From contig NZ_FOAP01000004.1 of NCBI RefSeq assembly GCF_900109545.1, positions 310,001 through 374,000 on the forward strand: DNA of 64,000 bases. Reading direction: 5' to 3'. Of the stretch, positions 3,228-53,463 are shown one piece after another; the first letter of the stretch is position 1, and each line of letters starts with the position of its first letter. The position numbers and the translations under genes are program-made. The notes under the pieces are model-generated. The model was not told the DNA's origin. It did no database searches and worked only from the letters and a program-made list of their open reading frames with translations. The DNA is from Stigmatella aurantiaca (GTDB taxonomy: Bacteria > Myxococcota > Myxococcia > Myxococcales > Myxococcaceae).

Positions 3228-5579
3228 ATGGTCGAATGTCGTCGAGACGCGGTGATGGTGCTCCTGGTGTGCGCGGGAGCGCTGACGGGGTTTCCGGCCG
3301 TGGCCCAGCCGCAGGCGGAGGAGCCCGCCGGCGAGGTGCTCTCGGAGGAGCAGCTGGAGCAGCTGCTCGGCTCGCCCGCAGAGCAGCCCTCGGATGGAGA
3401 CCTCTCCGGGGAGTCCTTTGGCCTGGAGCAGCTCGACTCGTACTTTGCCCAGGGCACACTGGCCCAGGCCCGGGCGGAGTTCCGTCAGGGGCGCTACCGC
3501 CGCGCGCGCAAGCTCCTGTCGCGGGAAGAGCCCACGTTGCCGGTCCGCTTCCTGAGCGCGCAGAGCGCCTTGCAGGCGGGGGAGTACGCCGCCGCGGCCG
3601 AGGAGTTCACCGCCCTGGCGGAGGTGTACGTGCCGCTGCGGGAGCACTGTCTGCTCCGGTCGGCCCAGGCCCACGAGCGGCTTCGCCACTGGGCGCTCGC
3701 CGCGGGCCAGTACCGCGCCGTGAGCGCGGGCTCGCCCCTGTACCCCGAGGCGCGCTTCAACCTGGCGCGCGTGCTGGAGCGCCAGCGCGACATTCCCGGC
3801 GCCCTGGGCGCGCTCGAGGAGCTCATCCAGAGCCGGCAGAGCCGGGGGCCGGACGCCATCCGCATGAAGGCGCTGATGAAGACCTGCGACCTGGCGCGCA
3901 AGCAGGGCCTGTACAACGTGGAGCACCGCGCGCTGCTGGAGGTGTGGGCCACCGCCCCCATGTCCCGTGAGGCGGAGAACGCCCGGCAGCGGCTGGCGGG
4001 TCTGCCGCTGCCCCTCAAGTGGCGCGTGCGCCGGGGCGAGGCCCTGGTGGAGTTGCACCACAACGTCTCCGCCATGGAGCTGCTCGACCGGGTGCTGCCG
4101 CATGTCGATTTGCCGGACCCGCTGGCCTGCAGTGCCCACCTGACGTATGGCCGCGCCCTGCGCAAGGAGCGCAAGCACCGCCAGGCCATCCAGGTGCTGA
4201 CGCCGGTGGTGCAGCACTGTGGCTCGCCCGAGATCCGGCCCCAGGCGCTCTACGTGCTGGGCTACTCGCAGTCCGTGGTGGATCCGGAGAACGCCATCAC
4301 CACCTACGCCACGCTGGCGCGCGACTACCCCGAGCACGGCTACGCCGACGATGCCCTGTTCTTCGAGGCCTGGCTCCAGCAGCGCACGTTCCAGGCCGGG
4401 CCGGCCCTGGCCCACTATGAAGAGGTGGCCCGGCGCTACCCGGCGGGGAACTTCGCCTCGGAGGCCCTCTTCCGGGCATTCTGGCTCCACCAGCGCGCGG
4501 GCAATCCCGCCGCGGCGCTGGCGTCGCTCCAGGCGGTGGAGAACCTGCCTCACGCCGCGCGGACGGATGAGGCCCTCTGGCGGGCCCGGTACTGGCAAGC
4601 CCGGCTGCAGGAGGCCCAGAAGGAGCAGGACGCGGCGCTCGGCGCTTACGAGCGCATCGCCACCGAGCGTCCCGCGAGCTGGTACGGGATGCTGGCCCGC
4701 TCCCGTCTGGTGACGCTCGCGCCGGACCGGCTGATGGCCTTCAAGCCCGCGCTGCGCAAGGCCAAGGAGGCCGCCAAGGCCCTGGAGGAGGCCCCCGCCG
4801 AGGTCTGGCCCCTGTCGCTGGGCTCGCTCAAGCGGGACGCGCGCTTCGCGGCCGGCGTGGAGCTGCTTCGCCTGGGGCTGCCCGGCGCGGTGGACGAGCT
4901 GCTCGCCGTGGACCACCGCTCGCTCACCGAGGAGCCCGCGCGGCTCGTCTTCCAGATCCTCCAGCGCTCCGGGCGGGGCCGGGCCGCGCGCCAGGTGGCC
5001 CGGACTTCGCTGCACCAGGAAGTGCGGGGCCCGTTGAGCCCCGCGTCCCGTCCCATCTGGGAGGCCACCTGGCCGCTCGCGTACCGCTCCATCATCGAGC
5101 GCCAGGCGAAGGCGGCCCGCGTGGACCCGGACCTGCTCCAGGGGCTCATCCGCGAGGAGAGCCGGTTCAACCCCCGGGCCCGCTCCTCCACGGGCGCGCT
5201 GGGGCTCGCGCAGCTCATGCCCGCCACGGCGCGCGAGGTGGCCGCCTCGCTCCAGGTTCCGTGGGTGTCCGAGCAGGTGCTGTTGCAGCCCGCCGACAAC
5301 GTCCGGTTGGGCTCCGCCTACCTGGGCCAGTTGCTCAAGCGCTTCGGCGGCAACCCGGCGTTCGCGGTGGCCGCCTACAACGCGGGCCCCATGGCGGTGG
5401 AGCGCTGGCAGCGGGCCCTGCCGCAGGCGGAGCTCGACGAGTGGGTGGAGCACATCGCCTTCGAGGAGACGCGCGAGTACGTGAAGCGCGTGCTGGGCAG
5501 CTACAGCGCTTACAAGCTGCTCTACACCTCCGAGCCCCCGCTGCTGCGCATCTCCTCTCCGCAGATGACCGGAATGTAG
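3228..5579 (+). CDS. Lytic murein transglycosylase with tetratricopeptide-like repeats (Slt70 type)
   Basis: 783 residues. The signal peptide runs from MVECRRDAV through VLLVCAGALTGFPAVAQP, so export is expected. The middle 500 residues are TPR-like helical repeats with many Ala/Arg/Leu pairs (for example EARFNLARVLERQ, QALYVLGYSQSVV), the superhelix typical of Slt70-like enzymes. The C-terminal 150 residues are the catalytic domain: IREESRFNP with the general-acid Glu, GALGLAQLMPATAREVA, and AVAAYNAGP. It should cleave the MurNAc-GlcNAc bond of peptidoglycan to give 1,6-anhydro products. The ATG at 3228 is chosen because a GGGAG site sits 6 bases upstream and the signal peptide follows directly. 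Confidence 0.92.
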   Translation: MVECRRDAVMVLLVCAGALTGFPAVAQPQAEEPAGEVLSEEQLEQLLGSPAEQPSDGDLSGESFGLEQLDSYFAQGTLAQARAEFRQGRYRRARKLLSREEPTLPVRFLSAQSALQAGEYAAAAEEFTALAEVYVPLREHCLLRSAQAHERLRHWALAAGQYRAVSAGSPLYPEARFNLARVLERQRDIPGALGALEELIQSRQSRGPDAIRMKALMKTCDLARKQGLYNVEHRALLEVWATAPMSREAENARQRLAGLPLPLKWRVRRGEALVELHHNVSAMELLDRVLPHVDLPDPLACSAHLTYGRALRKERKHRQAIQVLTPVVQHCGSPEIRPQALYVLGYSQSVVDPENAITTYATLARDYPEHGYADDALFFEAWLQQRTFQAGPALAHYEEVARRYPAGNFASEALFRAFWLHQRAGNPAAALASLQAVENLPHAARTDEALWRARYWQARLQEAQKEQDAALGAYERIATERPASWYGMLARSRLVTLAPDRLMAFKPALRKAKEAAKALEEAPAEVWPLSLGSLKRDARFAAGVELLRLGLPGAVDELLAVDHRSLTEEPARLVFQILQRSGRGRAARQVARTSLHQEVRGPLSPASRPIWEATWPLAYRSIIERQAKAARVDPDLLQGLIREESRFNPRARSSTGALGLAQLMPATAREVAASLQVPWVSEQVLLQPADNVRLGSAYLGQLLKRFGGNPAFAVAAYNAGPMAVERWQRALPQAELDEWVEHIAFEETREYVKRVLGSYSAYKLLYTSEPPLLRISSPQMTGM

Positions 5580-50528: not shown

Positions 50529-51395
50529 TCACACAGCGTGGGCCACCTCGAGCGCGAAGCCTTTGGCCTTCTCCTTCACCAGGACTTCGCGCAGCTTCTG
50601 AGAGATGAGAAGCCGGGGCTCGGGGCGTAGTTCGCCCCGCCTGACGCCAAACAGCTTGTCGGTGCGCCACCAGTCGCTGGTGTCCAAGCTATCCCGCTCG
50701 ACGGTCAGCTCCGAAATCTGGTTGAGCCCGGCAAGGTGTCCGTTGGGACAGCGGTGTTCGCCTTCGGCATCCAGTTCGAAAGGGTGAACACCGGCGACGG
50801 TTCGCGCATGGAGCCGTGCGGGCTTGGACGTGATGACGAGTTGCCTCCAATCCGAGGGCTCGGCCCCGTGGCGTCCGTGGTGCAGCACAGGCTGGTAGTC
50901 CGCTCCGCGGATGCCGCGTTCCACCAATGCATCCGCCAGCCGTAGCGAGACCACAAGCTCTCCCGCAATCGTCTGCGCAAAGTCCTTCCCCTTGGGAATG
51001 CGCCGCGTGTCGAGGGTGAGCGGGGTGACTTGCCGGGCGCCACTGCCGCAATGCGCGCAGGCCACGGATTCGTCGTACCCGGTACCGCACAGAGTGCCCG
51101 GAGGCTCGAAGTAGGAGCGGATGGCGAGGTTCAGGAGTTCTGCAGCCTGGAGTTCCTTTGCGGAATAGCTCCGGTGGATGCGCCAATAGGTGAAGAAGAC
51201 ACCGCCCCTCCGGCGGTGCTCCTGCTCAAGCTCCTGGATGTGCCGCACCTGCGGATCGGAAAGGGGCAGGACGACCTTGCGGAGGGCCTCTCCCAGGGGC
51301 ACGCCGAGGTCTGGCTCCAGGAACTGTCGCGCACGCTCCTCGGTGATCCGAAACTCGATGGTCTCGCGCATGGTGATGGCGGGCGGGACAAGCAT
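50529..51395 (-). CDS. Hypothetical protein with CxxCG zinc-ribbon-like motif
   Basis: 288 residues. The centre has CAHCGSG and, later, RCPNGH, which could together hold a zinc ion. It resembles in outline the myxobacterial double-CxxCG paralogous family, but I am not sure. The rest is mixed alpha/beta with no catalytic motif. It follows a small XRE regulator gene by 24 bases, without a clear ribosome binding site. Codon use is less GC3-biased than its neighbours. The pairing with an XRE gene and the codon use suggest a small accessory module, possibly toxin-antitoxin-like, but this is inference. Confidence 0.7.
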   Translation of the reverse strand: MLVPPAITMRETIEFRITEERARQFLEPDLGVPLGEALRKVVLPLSDPQVRHIQELEQEHRRRGGVFFTYWRIHRSYSAKELQAAELLNLAIRSYFEPPGTLCGTGYDESVACAHCGSGARQVTPLTLDTRRIPKGKDFAQTIAGELVVSLRLADALVERGIRGADYQPVLHHGRHGAEPSDWRQLVITSKPARLHARTVAGVHPFELDAEGEHRCPNGHLAGLNQISELTVERDSLDTSDWWRTDKLFGVRRGELRPEPRLLISQKLREVLVKEKAKGFALEVAHAV

Positions 51396-51419: not shown

Positions 51420-51650
51420 CTAATCCTGGAGATCCTGCAGGTCGGGCAGGTCGTCCGGATCAATCTTCAGCAGGACGCACAGCCGCGTCAGCGTGGAGAC
51501 GCTGGGCAGCAAGCGGCCCCGCTCGATGCCCCCATACGTCATCGGGTGCAACTCGACGCGGGCGGCGATCTCCTCTTGGCTGAGCCCTGTCTTTTCGCGC
51601 GCCTCCCGCAGGGCGGTACCGAGGGCCAGGGCCCGTTGTCTCTGACTCAT
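51420..51650 (-). CDS. XRE-family helix-turn-helix regulator
   Basis: 76 residues, just a DNA-binding domain. The HTH reads ALREAREKTGLSQEEIAARVELH, MTYGGIERGRLLPSVSTLTRLC. The C-terminal end repeats DLPDLQDLQD. It probably represses its own promoter and the downstream CxxCG gene. The start is the ATG at 51650 (MSQRQRAL). The unit is divergent from the pseudokinase gene. Confidence 0.85.
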   Translation of the reverse strand: MSQRQRALALGTALREAREKTGLSQEEIAARVELHPMTYGGIERGRLLPSVSTLTRLCVLLKIDPDDLPDLQDLQD

Positions 51651-51818
51651 GGGCGGCAGACTCCGTTGGAACCCACAGCGTACGCCATCGCGCGCGCGGC
51701 GTCTTTCCACTCGATCTTTCAATCCGAGGCAACTCTCGACGTAGAGTGGCCGTAAATTTACCTTCAGGGTTGTCCTGCGGGAGCCCGTGCCTCCCCAGAG
51801 GAAAGAGGAGCCTTGTCC

Positions 51819-52982
51819 ATGCCGAGCCCGCCCCCGGGCCACCCCCCGGCCTCCGGTCCGGTCCTGCTGCAGTCCGGGCACACGACCTACGAACTCATCC
51901 GTCCCCTGGAGAAGACCTGGCACGGAGAGCTGCTGCTGGCCCGGCGGCACTTCGACAAGACCTCCGGCGACTATGTCGTGCTCAAGCGCCTGAGCCGCGA
52001 CTGCCGCGAGGAGGACTACCGGCGCCTCATGGAGGAGGTGGCCGTCACCTCGCGCCTCCACCACCCCGGCATCGCCGGGCTGCACGACGTGCAGGGCACC
52101 ACGGGCGATCCCTACCTTGTCCTGGAGCACGTGGAGGGCCACCGGCTGGAGTCCCTCCTGGAGCTCTCCGCCCTGACGGGCAAGGTCCTCTCGGAGGCCT
52201 TTGCCTGCTACCTGGGCGTCGAGGTGGCCGACGCGCTTCACCATGCCCATGAGCTCACCAGCGAGGAGGGGCGCTGGCTGCGGCTGGTCCACCGCAACGT
52301 GTCGCCCCTCACCCTGGTGGTGGGCCGCCGCGGTGAGGTGAAGCTCACCGACTTCGGCACCGTCTGGTCCACGCTGCCCGGGCGCCAGCCCACCGAGGAC
52401 GACGTGCTGCCGGGCAACCTCGCCTATTCCTCGCCCGAGCTGACCCGCAAGGGGATGCTGGATGGGCGCACGGATCAGTTCTCGCTCGGGGCGGTGCTCT
52501 TCCACGTGCTCACCGGCAGGCCGCTGGTGGACGGCGCCGAGCGGCTCTCCCTGGAGATGCGCGATCTGCGGCGGCGCATGGACGAGGCGCAGGCCCTGGG
52601 GCCCCGGGACCGGGCCGGCGTGGTGCTCGCCGCGGATCTGAAGACGCAGCTGCGCACCCTCACCGAGGGCTTCGTCCAGCGCATCCGGGCGCTGAGCGCG
52701 CGGGACGTGGCGGAGGCCACGCGCATGTTGCCCACGGGCCTGCGCCCCCTGCTGCGCAAGTCCCTGGCGCCCCGGCGCAGCGACCGCTATGCCTCGTGCG
52801 CGGAGTTCGGCCACGAGCTGCGCATGCACCTGTTCCGCCTGGGGCCCATGTACGGGCGGCCCGAGGCCGAGCGCGAGGTGACGGCCCTGGTCCGCGCCGC
52901 CCCGCGCCTGCGCCCCCGGGGGCCTTTGCCCCGGCGCGTCGCCCCGCCAGAGAAGCGGCGCAAGCGGGATTCCTCCCCGTAG
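51819..52982 (+). CDS. Serine/threonine protein kinase-like protein, predicted pseudokinase
   Basis: 387 residues, cytoplasmic. The Hanks-type kinase fold is clear: the beta3 Lys in YVVLKRL, YLVLEHVEG at the hinge, LTDFGTVW (the DFG metal Asp present), YSSPELTRKG and DQFSLGAVLFHVLTG. The catalytic loop is changed: LVHRNVSPLTLVV has Asn where the catalytic Asp of HRD belongs, and Thr where the metal-binding Asn belongs. It is therefore predicted to be catalytically dead or strongly impaired. The C-terminus is basic (RRVAPPEKRRKRD). It may act as a scaffold or regulator of true kinases. The ATG at 51819 has GAGGAG upstream. Confidence 0.88.
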   Translation: MPSPPPGHPPASGPVLLQSGHTTYELIRPLEKTWHGELLLARRHFDKTSGDYVVLKRLSRDCREEDYRRLMEEVAVTSRLHHPGIAGLHDVQGTTGDPYLVLEHVEGHRLESLLELSALTGKVLSEAFACYLGVEVADALHHAHELTSEEGRWLRLVHRNVSPLTLVVGRRGEVKLTDFGTVWSTLPGRQPTEDDVLPGNLAYSSPELTRKGMLDGRTDQFSLGAVLFHVLTGRPLVDGAERLSLEMRDLRRRMDEAQALGPRDRAGVVLAADLKTQLRTLTEGFVQRIRALSARDVAEATRMLPTGLRPLLRKSLAPRRSDRYASCAEFGHELRMHLFRLGPMYGRPEAEREVTALVRAAPRLRPRGPLPRRVAPPEKRRKRDSSP

Positions 52983-53055: not shown

Positions 53056-53463
53056 ATGGATCGCCGTCAGATCCGCGTCGTCGGCGCGATGCTTCAGAAC
53101 GAAGAAGGGCGCTACCTCATCACCCAGCGTCCGCCCAAGGCCTCGCTGCCCCTGCTCTGGGAGTTTCCCGGAGGCCGCGTGGAGGAGGGCGAGACGGATC
53201 CCGAGGCCCTGGCACGGGAAATCCAGGAGGAGATGGGCGTCGCCGTCGTGGTGCTCGAGCAGGCGATGCACACCCGCCACGAGTACCCGTCCTATGACAT
53301 CGACTTCCGCGTCTTCCGCTGCAAGTTGAGCAACCCGGCAGCCCCCATCCGGCACCTGCGCGTGCATGACCACCGCTGGGTGTTGCTGGAGGAAATGTCC
53401 AACTACCGGTTCCCCGATGCGGATGCGCGGACCCTGGCGAAGCTGCTCGATCTGGACACCTGA
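53056..53463 (+). CDS. MutT-like Nudix hydrolase
   Basis: 135 residues. The Nudix box is GGRVEEGETDPEALAREIQE plus EMGV, matching GX5EX7REUXEEXGU fully. The start RRQIRVVGAMLQNEEGRYLITQRP is typical of 8-oxo-dGTP diphosphatase (MutT). It removes oxidised nucleotides before they enter DNA. GACAGGAGC precedes the ATG. The next gene starts one base after its stop, so they are co-transcribed. Confidence 0.9.
   Translation: MDRRQIRVVGAMLQNEEGRYLITQRPPKASLPLLWEFPGGRVEEGETDPEALAREIQEEMGVAVVVLEQAMHTRHEYPSYDIDFRVFRCKLSNPAAPIRHLRVHDHRWVLLEEMSNYRFPDADARTLAKLLDLDT

Follow-up and report, generated by a model that had tools for sequence, protein, structure and literature searches.

A predicted HRN pseudokinase and its divergent XRE-type neighbour in Stigmatella aurantiaca

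The window, by which we mean the whole 64,000-nucleotide stretch of Stigmatella aurantiaca DNA that was analysed, carries a kinase gene whose catalytic loop reads HRN in place of HRD. The locus raises the question of whether this gene encodes a maintained pseudokinase and, if so, on what such a kinase fold might act.

The kinase fold, its catalytic motifs and their fixation

The gene (51819–52982, forward strand) is an ATG-start open reading frame of 387 residues with a Hanks-type kinase domain, for which a TTG at 51813 is also possible as an upstream start. The protein matches the Pfam Pkinase profile PF00069 with an E-value of 3.4e-22 (79.5 bits, against a cut-off of 31.7), and its AlphaFold2 model adopts a kinase fold (mean pLDDT 82.8, pTM 0.82) whose best matches in the PDB are kinase structures, with CaMKII, SIK3, CDK2 and the pseudokinase CASK among the 50 matches listed. 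Profile and predicted fold thus both place the protein in the Hanks-type (eukaryotic-like) superfamily. A helical stretch at approximately residues 240–303 precedes the last helices of the model, and the C-terminal tail (365–387) is of low confidence.

The first-pass annotation, made from the letters alone, had described an intact fold with its β3 lysine and DFG motif, together with HRN for HRD and threonine for the asparagine of the loop, and this description is borne out. K56 (51984–51986, +) is invariant across a 32-row alignment and DFG 178–180 (52350–52358, +) is kept in all eight orthologues, while E73, D178, SPE 205–207, the αF aspartate D219 and Arg323 are also present. In the catalytic loop HRNVSPLTL (52290–52316, +), N160 (codon 52296–52298) replaces the aspartate and T165 (codon 52311–52313) the metal-binding asparagine. 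What the annotation overlooked is the degraded glycine-rich loop, LEKTWHGEL (51906–51932, +), in which two of three glycines are gone, Glu31 and Thr33 standing for Gly50 and Gly52 in PKA numbering.

Relatives were searched in 96 genomes of the family, 64 of which hold some match at an E-value of 1e-40 or better. An orthologue is present in eight genomes, the window genome included, comprising all seven of genus g1 and one of genus g8; identity to the window protein is 66–98%, and the next matches fall below 50%. The annotation had suggested checking whether HRN is fixed, and it is: all eight orthologues carry it, each with the asparagine codon AAC, and all eight likewise share the loop threonine, Glu31, Thr33 and an open frame. 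HRN together with the loop threonine in every orthologue is neither chance nor sequencing error, and fixation in 8/8 genomes equally rules out a recent mutation. The eight proteins form one clade (support 100/100) on a branch of 0.73 changes per column, within which no orthologue with HRD occurs; the same-locus relatives that have HRD lie outside it, in more distant genera.

For the kinase gene, dN/dS (NG86) is 0.080, 0.148, 0.139 and 0.147 in the four closest pairs (drawn from G000, the window's own genome, and G036, G037 and G038; dS 0.10–0.38), and 0.192, 0.268 and 0.380 in three more distant pairs (G039–G041, G042–G041 and G000–G039, respectively). Over the same seven pairs the ratio spans 0.08–0.41 (0.082–0.408) for the neighbouring XRE gene and 0.075–0.179 for the NUDIX and FtsH genes. 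By the sequence definition of a pseudokinase given in PMC12599244, loss of the HRD aspartate, the window gene qualifies through N160 in all eight orthologues. The annotation's pseudokinase reading is thereby upheld in this sequence sense, and the genomic comparison supports a maintained pseudokinase, with purifying selection acting on its gene and on the XRE gene alike.

The nearest clade with HRD (genera g3 and g7) has a divergent XRE gene at 216–297 bp in 10/10 members, and the seven of these ten that could be compared with long flanks all share the gene order of the window locus, which makes them same-locus relatives. Their kinases carry HRD with Gly, Ser or Ala at the position of the loop asparagine, and the glycine loop reads LGQGHHGEL in 10/10 members. 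Since HRD is found in same-locus relatives of two more distant genera, the Asp-to-Asn change is derived but old; the most fitting reading is that both this change and the decay of the glycine loop arose in the HRN lineage. Loss of the loop asparagine may have come earlier than that lineage or independently of it, as the tree gives no firm branching order for the three clades. The same genera hold another XRE-linked clade, made up of G000:C16 and seven relatives (hereafter the C16 clade), which keeps HRD and the loop asparagine; Glu replaces the DFG aspartate in five of its eight members.

Retention of nucleotide binding, which the annotation had also favoured, is less well supported than claimed: Lys56, Glu73 and Asp178 are kept, yet the metal-binding asparagine has been lost, as have two glycines of the glycine-rich loop. 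Tight ATP binding is known from the HRN pseudokinase HER3, in which the loop asparagine and the DFG aspartate hold a single Mg (PMC4718504). The first of these residues is absent here, and nucleotide binding by the window protein is therefore uncertain; judged by sequence only, Thr165 in 8/8 orthologues sets the lineage apart from HER3-like binders of one cation.

The divergent XRE gene and the region between the genes

Upstream of the kinase and divergent from it lies a gene for an XRE-type HTH regulator of 76 residues (51420–51650, reverse strand; HTH_31 9.8e-16, HTH_3 2.1e-13). The two genes are 163–175 bp apart in 8/8 orthologous loci, and the gene order through NUDIX, FtsH, rpoZ, grpE and htrA is retained in all eight; the NUDIX hydrolase gene, the conserved downstream neighbour (53056–53463, +), served for synteny only. 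On the other side of the XRE gene, a 288-residue open reading frame (50529–51395, −) has no Pfam or NCBIfam match. Its homologue occurs in L041 and was not found in L039, L040 or L042–L045 at an E-value of 1e-8, so among the flanks compared it would appear to be an accessory neighbour. The adjoining XRE regulator is the best genomic candidate for a partner of the pseudokinase.

The XRE partners of other clades are approximately 112–155 residues long where the frame is complete (starts uncertain) and bear a C-terminal segment, modelled as a two-helix hairpin at residues 94–105 and 108–123 (pLDDT blocks 76–85). In the HRN lineage the protein stops at 76 residues, before this tail, in 8/8 loci, and in the window genome the match to the tailed-XRE family profile reaches no further than position 81 of 125. 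Outside the HRN clade the short partners comprise those at L302 and L308, which a contig end appears to have truncated, and the broken or partial ones at L329 and L333, which still carry tail sequence. Tail and catalytic aspartate are both absent in the HRN lineage, and both losses thus map to one branch; as each loss happened there once, the correlation joins a single event to another single event. At an E-value of 1e-10 the window's own genome yields 13 matches to the tailed family, five of which (C16, C4:91508, C4:361408, C9:132822 and C18:196766) adjoin a kinase of the XRE-linked clade described below, so that proteins of this family also occur apart from such kinases. A Ser/Thr position in the tail (RRMSR in some rows) was considered as a phosphosite and dropped, as it is Lys, Glu, Asp, Asn or Arg elsewhere; it looks more like a helix cap.

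The 168-bp divergent promoter region contains an operator-like inverted repeat of 16 bp, ACTCTCGACGTAGAGT (51732–51747), which is identical across 8/8 HRN loci bar one spacer position, and a second short palindrome, GTAAATTTAC (51752–51761), which is exact in seven of the eight loci in the intergenic alignment. The form ACTCTN6AGAGT is single copy in the 9.37-Mb genome, and the reversed control pattern has 0 copies. Within the window there is one match to the ACTCTCGACGTAGAGT pattern at three or fewer mismatches, and 32 of 100 shuffles give as much. Since single-copy status is not evidence of function and matches in the window are at chance level, the case for an operator rests on conservation. 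A genome-wide regulon is unsupported for exact matches, of which there is one copy only. An inverted-repeat scan with a minimum of 8 returned a 10-nt pair 85 nt apart; the repeat with 5-bp arms is not listed by it.

Conserved inverted repeats occur at the same place in the two related clades, namely TGACTTCAANAGTCA in 9/9 aligned g3/g7 loci (of 10, L075 having been omitted from the intergenic alignment) and AACCTTTCAGGTT in 8/8 loci of the C16 clade. When conserved columns were shuffled, any comparable repeat arose in 0/500 shuffles for g3/g7, 1/500 for C16 and 1/500 for HRN. Clade-specific repeats of this kind would be expected if the XRE genes regulate themselves and their specificities have drifted apart, and we infer that they are candidate operators.

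Catalytic loss and XRE linkage among related kinases

In its own genome the window gene stands among 154 kinase-profile matches, from which 151 kinases were read (150 of the matches plus the window gene), with the strand chosen by motif score and the paralogue G000:C9:133453-134607 left out of the table. HRN occurs in one of the 151, and the catalytic aspartate is absent in three (HRN, HHN and HGA). Eight lack at least one of Lys, HRD-Asp, loop Asn and DFG-Asp, and the other 143 show no loss at these positions, L229 being counted among them although it is unreadable at Lys. Six of the eight degenerate kinases fall in the seven-member clade of the window gene (SH-aLRT 99). Two kinases that have lost the catalytic aspartate (HHN, HGA) lie outside it, in the regions of G000:C9:48215 (L239) and G000:C2:520646 (L289).

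An XRE-HTH match lies within 2 kb of four of the 151 read kinases, all four among the eight degenerate ones (hypergeometric 3.4e-6, kinship ignored); degenerate kinases make up 4/7 of those with a match within 3 kb (1.1e-4) and 4/9 within 5 kb (3.8e-4). All four nevertheless belong to the one seven-member clade, of which six members are degenerate whether XRE-linked or not, so that this association test is not independent, and the match beside C18 is a partial one in a broken gene. With 4/151 read kinases within 2 kb, all in a single clade, the XRE neighbourhood is unsupported as a kinome-wide feature. The genome also holds several copies of a pseudokinase, related to that of the window, with a β3 arginine (VIVRS) at G000:C18:197292-198449, C9:133453-134607 and C40:14947-15864. 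Identity to the C18 copy is 95% for C9 and 92% for C40, and copies in other species of the genus show 85–98%; the sequences suggest recent copying or gene conversion.

For the wider comparison we defined an XRE-linked Myxococcaceae kinase clade, that is, a clade kinase with an XRE-HTH gene within approximately 2 kb, the pairs being divergent, convergent or tandem. The window gene belongs to it by clade membership and by the distance of its XRE gene, and its locus departs from it in a second trait, having an XRE partner devoid of the C-terminal two-helix tail. Among the relatives of G000:C4:91874-92923, which has NFG (L299–L328), a convergent XRE gene is found in 26 of the 30 fetched loci; L314 and L315 have an upstream tandem one, and L325 and L328 none within the fetched flank. 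In these 30 relatives the DFG aspartate has become His or Asn in 15 and the β3 lysine Arg in seven. Nine XRE-linked loci (L316, L317, L320–L324, L326 and L327) have the DFG aspartate replaced by His or Asn, and seven of the nine also carry the β3 Lys-to-Arg change. Relatives of G000:C18:197292-198449 with β3 Arg (L329–L336) have a tandem XRE match in six of the eight fetched loci. No XRE gene was found within a flank of up to 1.5 kb in 22/22 members of the clade L337–L358, whose kinases show NRD (once DRD) for HRD and Arg, Cys or His at the loop asparagine, with Lys and DFG kept. In genus g19 (L046–L048, L051, L055, L056, L058 and L078) XRE gene and kinase are spaced 0.36–2.0 kb apart.

On a tree of 111 clade members, built with the five scored columns removed, parsimony assigns one change to the HRD aspartate, three to the lysine, nine to the DFG aspartate and 11 to the loop asparagine; scored as loss of any of Lys, HRD-Asp and DFG-Asp, the clade shows seven changes, losses and regains not separated. 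For the linkage count two rows were excluded, L288, which lies at the end of a contig, and L269, close to the start of one, and the linkage of L034, L036 and L038, whose loci were too short, was taken from gene positions. In the resulting 109 members, 33/73 XRE-linked kinases and 3/36 unlinked ones lack at least one of the residues Lys, HRD-Asp and DFG-Asp. The linkage limit was uneven, at up to 2.0 kb where long flanks or positions allowed it and up to 1.5 kb in 26 of the 36 kinases scored as unlinked. We draw no P value from this comparison, because the rows are related, were found using degenerate kinases as queries, and have unequal flanks. Loss of the loop asparagine runs in the opposite direction (27/73 linked, 28/36 unlinked). 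Lys, HRD-Asp and DFG-Asp are all retained in 40/73 XRE-linked members, so a kinase–XRE module does not need an inactive kinase.

A possible switch without phosphotransfer, its rivals and known systems

We propose, with a confidence that stands about midway between doubt and acceptance, that the pseudokinase and the divergent, repressor-like XRE gene form a two-gene regulatory module in which control would be exerted without phosphotransfer. The XRE protein would bind the inverted repeat and control both genes; binding of the XRE protein by the kinase fold, for which a ligand or partner may act as a gate, would change how that protein binds DNA. Modulation of the XRE protein by binding is the most likely role suggested by the genomic arrangement, and a scaffold function, which the annotation had named beside nucleotide binding, is plausible. 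Counting against the module is the XRE protein of the HRN lineage, which lacks the tail that would be a natural docking site; any contact that persists there would have to use the HTH core. More tentatively, and as a proposal that we would sooner doubt than accept, the Myxococcaceae may possess a set of related two-gene switches, each pairing an XRE repressor with a kinase fold that controls it chiefly through binding rather than phosphorylation. Kinases freed from catalysis would have lost Lys, HRD-Asp or DFG-Asp repeatedly (the seven parsimony changes above) with the XRE gene mostly kept, the HRN lineage would have lost the aspartate and the XRE tail on one branch, and each clade would have evolved its own operator.

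It is also possible, if rather unlikely, that the pseudokinase allosterically controls one of the apparently active kinases of the genome and that the XRE gene only controls its expression. The retained fold, with SPE, Asp219 of αF and Arg323, is consistent with such a role, as are the 143 read kinases without a catalytic-residue loss (the partly unreadable L229 included) and the known heterodimers of kinases and pseudokinases, such as those of HER3 (PMC4718504). The conserved neighbours tested are, however, not kinases, and the recurrent XRE pairing in the clade would be left unexplained. We consider it improbable that the protein is an atypical but still active kinase. Asp-to-Asn replacement does not always abolish activity (PMC7586955; PMC4718504), weak activity being on record for HER3 and the JH2 domain of JAK2, and Lys56, Glu73 and Asp178 are retained in the window protein; yet HER3 and JAK2 JH2 keep the loop asparagine (PMC4718504), whereas three further ATP-site positions (Glu31, Thr33 and Thr165) are altered in 8/8 orthologues here.

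The remodelled pocket, lineage-specific and conserved as it is, would also fit a kinase fold repurposed for another reaction, for which glutamylation by SidJ is a precedent (PMC12599244), or turned into a sensor of some non-ATP ligand. This reading has neither positive evidence nor a substrate candidate, and we regard it as highly doubtful. That the gene is decaying and heading for loss is extremely improbable: several catalytic positions were indeed lost on the one long branch, but the frame is open in all eight genomes, dN/dS is 0.08–0.15 in the four closest pairs, and synteny is kept. The module of pseudokinase and XRE regulator remains our preferred reading, and with a conserved genomic partner and a candidate operator at hand, direct regulation of a DNA-binding protein by a dead kinase fold becomes testable in a myxobacterium amenable to laboratory work. 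The recurrent loss of different catalytic residues in one clade would, moreover, be a natural experiment on the passage from kinase to pseudokinase.

An XRE-type DNA-binding protein beside a kinase-fold gene is familiar from the HipBA toxin–antitoxin modules. HipA does not belong to the Hanks kinases, and HipBA forms a single operon, whereas divergent, convergent and tandem pairs all occur in the window's clade.

Animals have HRN pseudokinases too (PMC7586955; PMC2754085). Human HER3/ERBB3 and PSKH2 resemble the window protein in having Asn for the HRD aspartate with the β3 lysine and DFG kept, but these animal proteins retain the loop asparagine (PMC4718504 for HER3, PMC7586955 for PSKH2), where the window protein has Thr and has also lost two loop glycines. 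Bacterial pseudokinases are described in a 2025 review as largely unexplored experimentally (PMC12599244), and an HRN-type bacterial family, ActPs2, is known (PMC12599244). ActPs2 and the window protein share a bacterial origin and the Asp-to-Asn replacement. ActPs2 proteins, however, almost always have a β3 arginine; DFG is deleted in most of them, they contain long insertions, transmembrane regions are common, and the family is predominantly actinobacterial (PMC12599244), whereas the window protein keeps Lys and DFG and has a myxobacterial host; K56 and DFG 178–180 rule out its membership, despite the shared loss of the aspartate.

Closer in phylogeny are the eukaryotic-like kinases of Myxococcus xanthus, a related bacterium in which 11 pseudokinases have been reported among 99 kinases, seven of them developmentally regulated (PMC6791715). 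Some M. xanthus kinase genes adjoin HTH-Xre genes, and both kinds of gene shift expression strongly in phase variation (PMC3986340). Clusters such as MXAN_4371-4373 and 4479-4481 hold co-regulated kinase and HTH-Xre genes, a pairing like that of the window; the likeness is one of gene adjacency, the part of that account available to us making no mention of pseudokinase status or operators (PMC3986340). Neighbouring kinase and HTH-Xre genes had therefore already been noted in M. xanthus before the present analysis. EcpK of M. xanthus, also a myxobacterial pseudokinase, has been proposed as a scaffold that works without phosphorylation, but it is of the BY-kinase type, acts in polysaccharide export and has lost its Walker motifs, and is not a Hanks kinase (PMC12004946). 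In the open-licence literature, judged by title and the start of the abstract among the matches listed, we found no description of XRE-linked pseudokinases. As a single protein the window gene product joins the HRN pseudokinases already known, and the new aspect is the XRE-linked clade with its recurrent catalytic loss.
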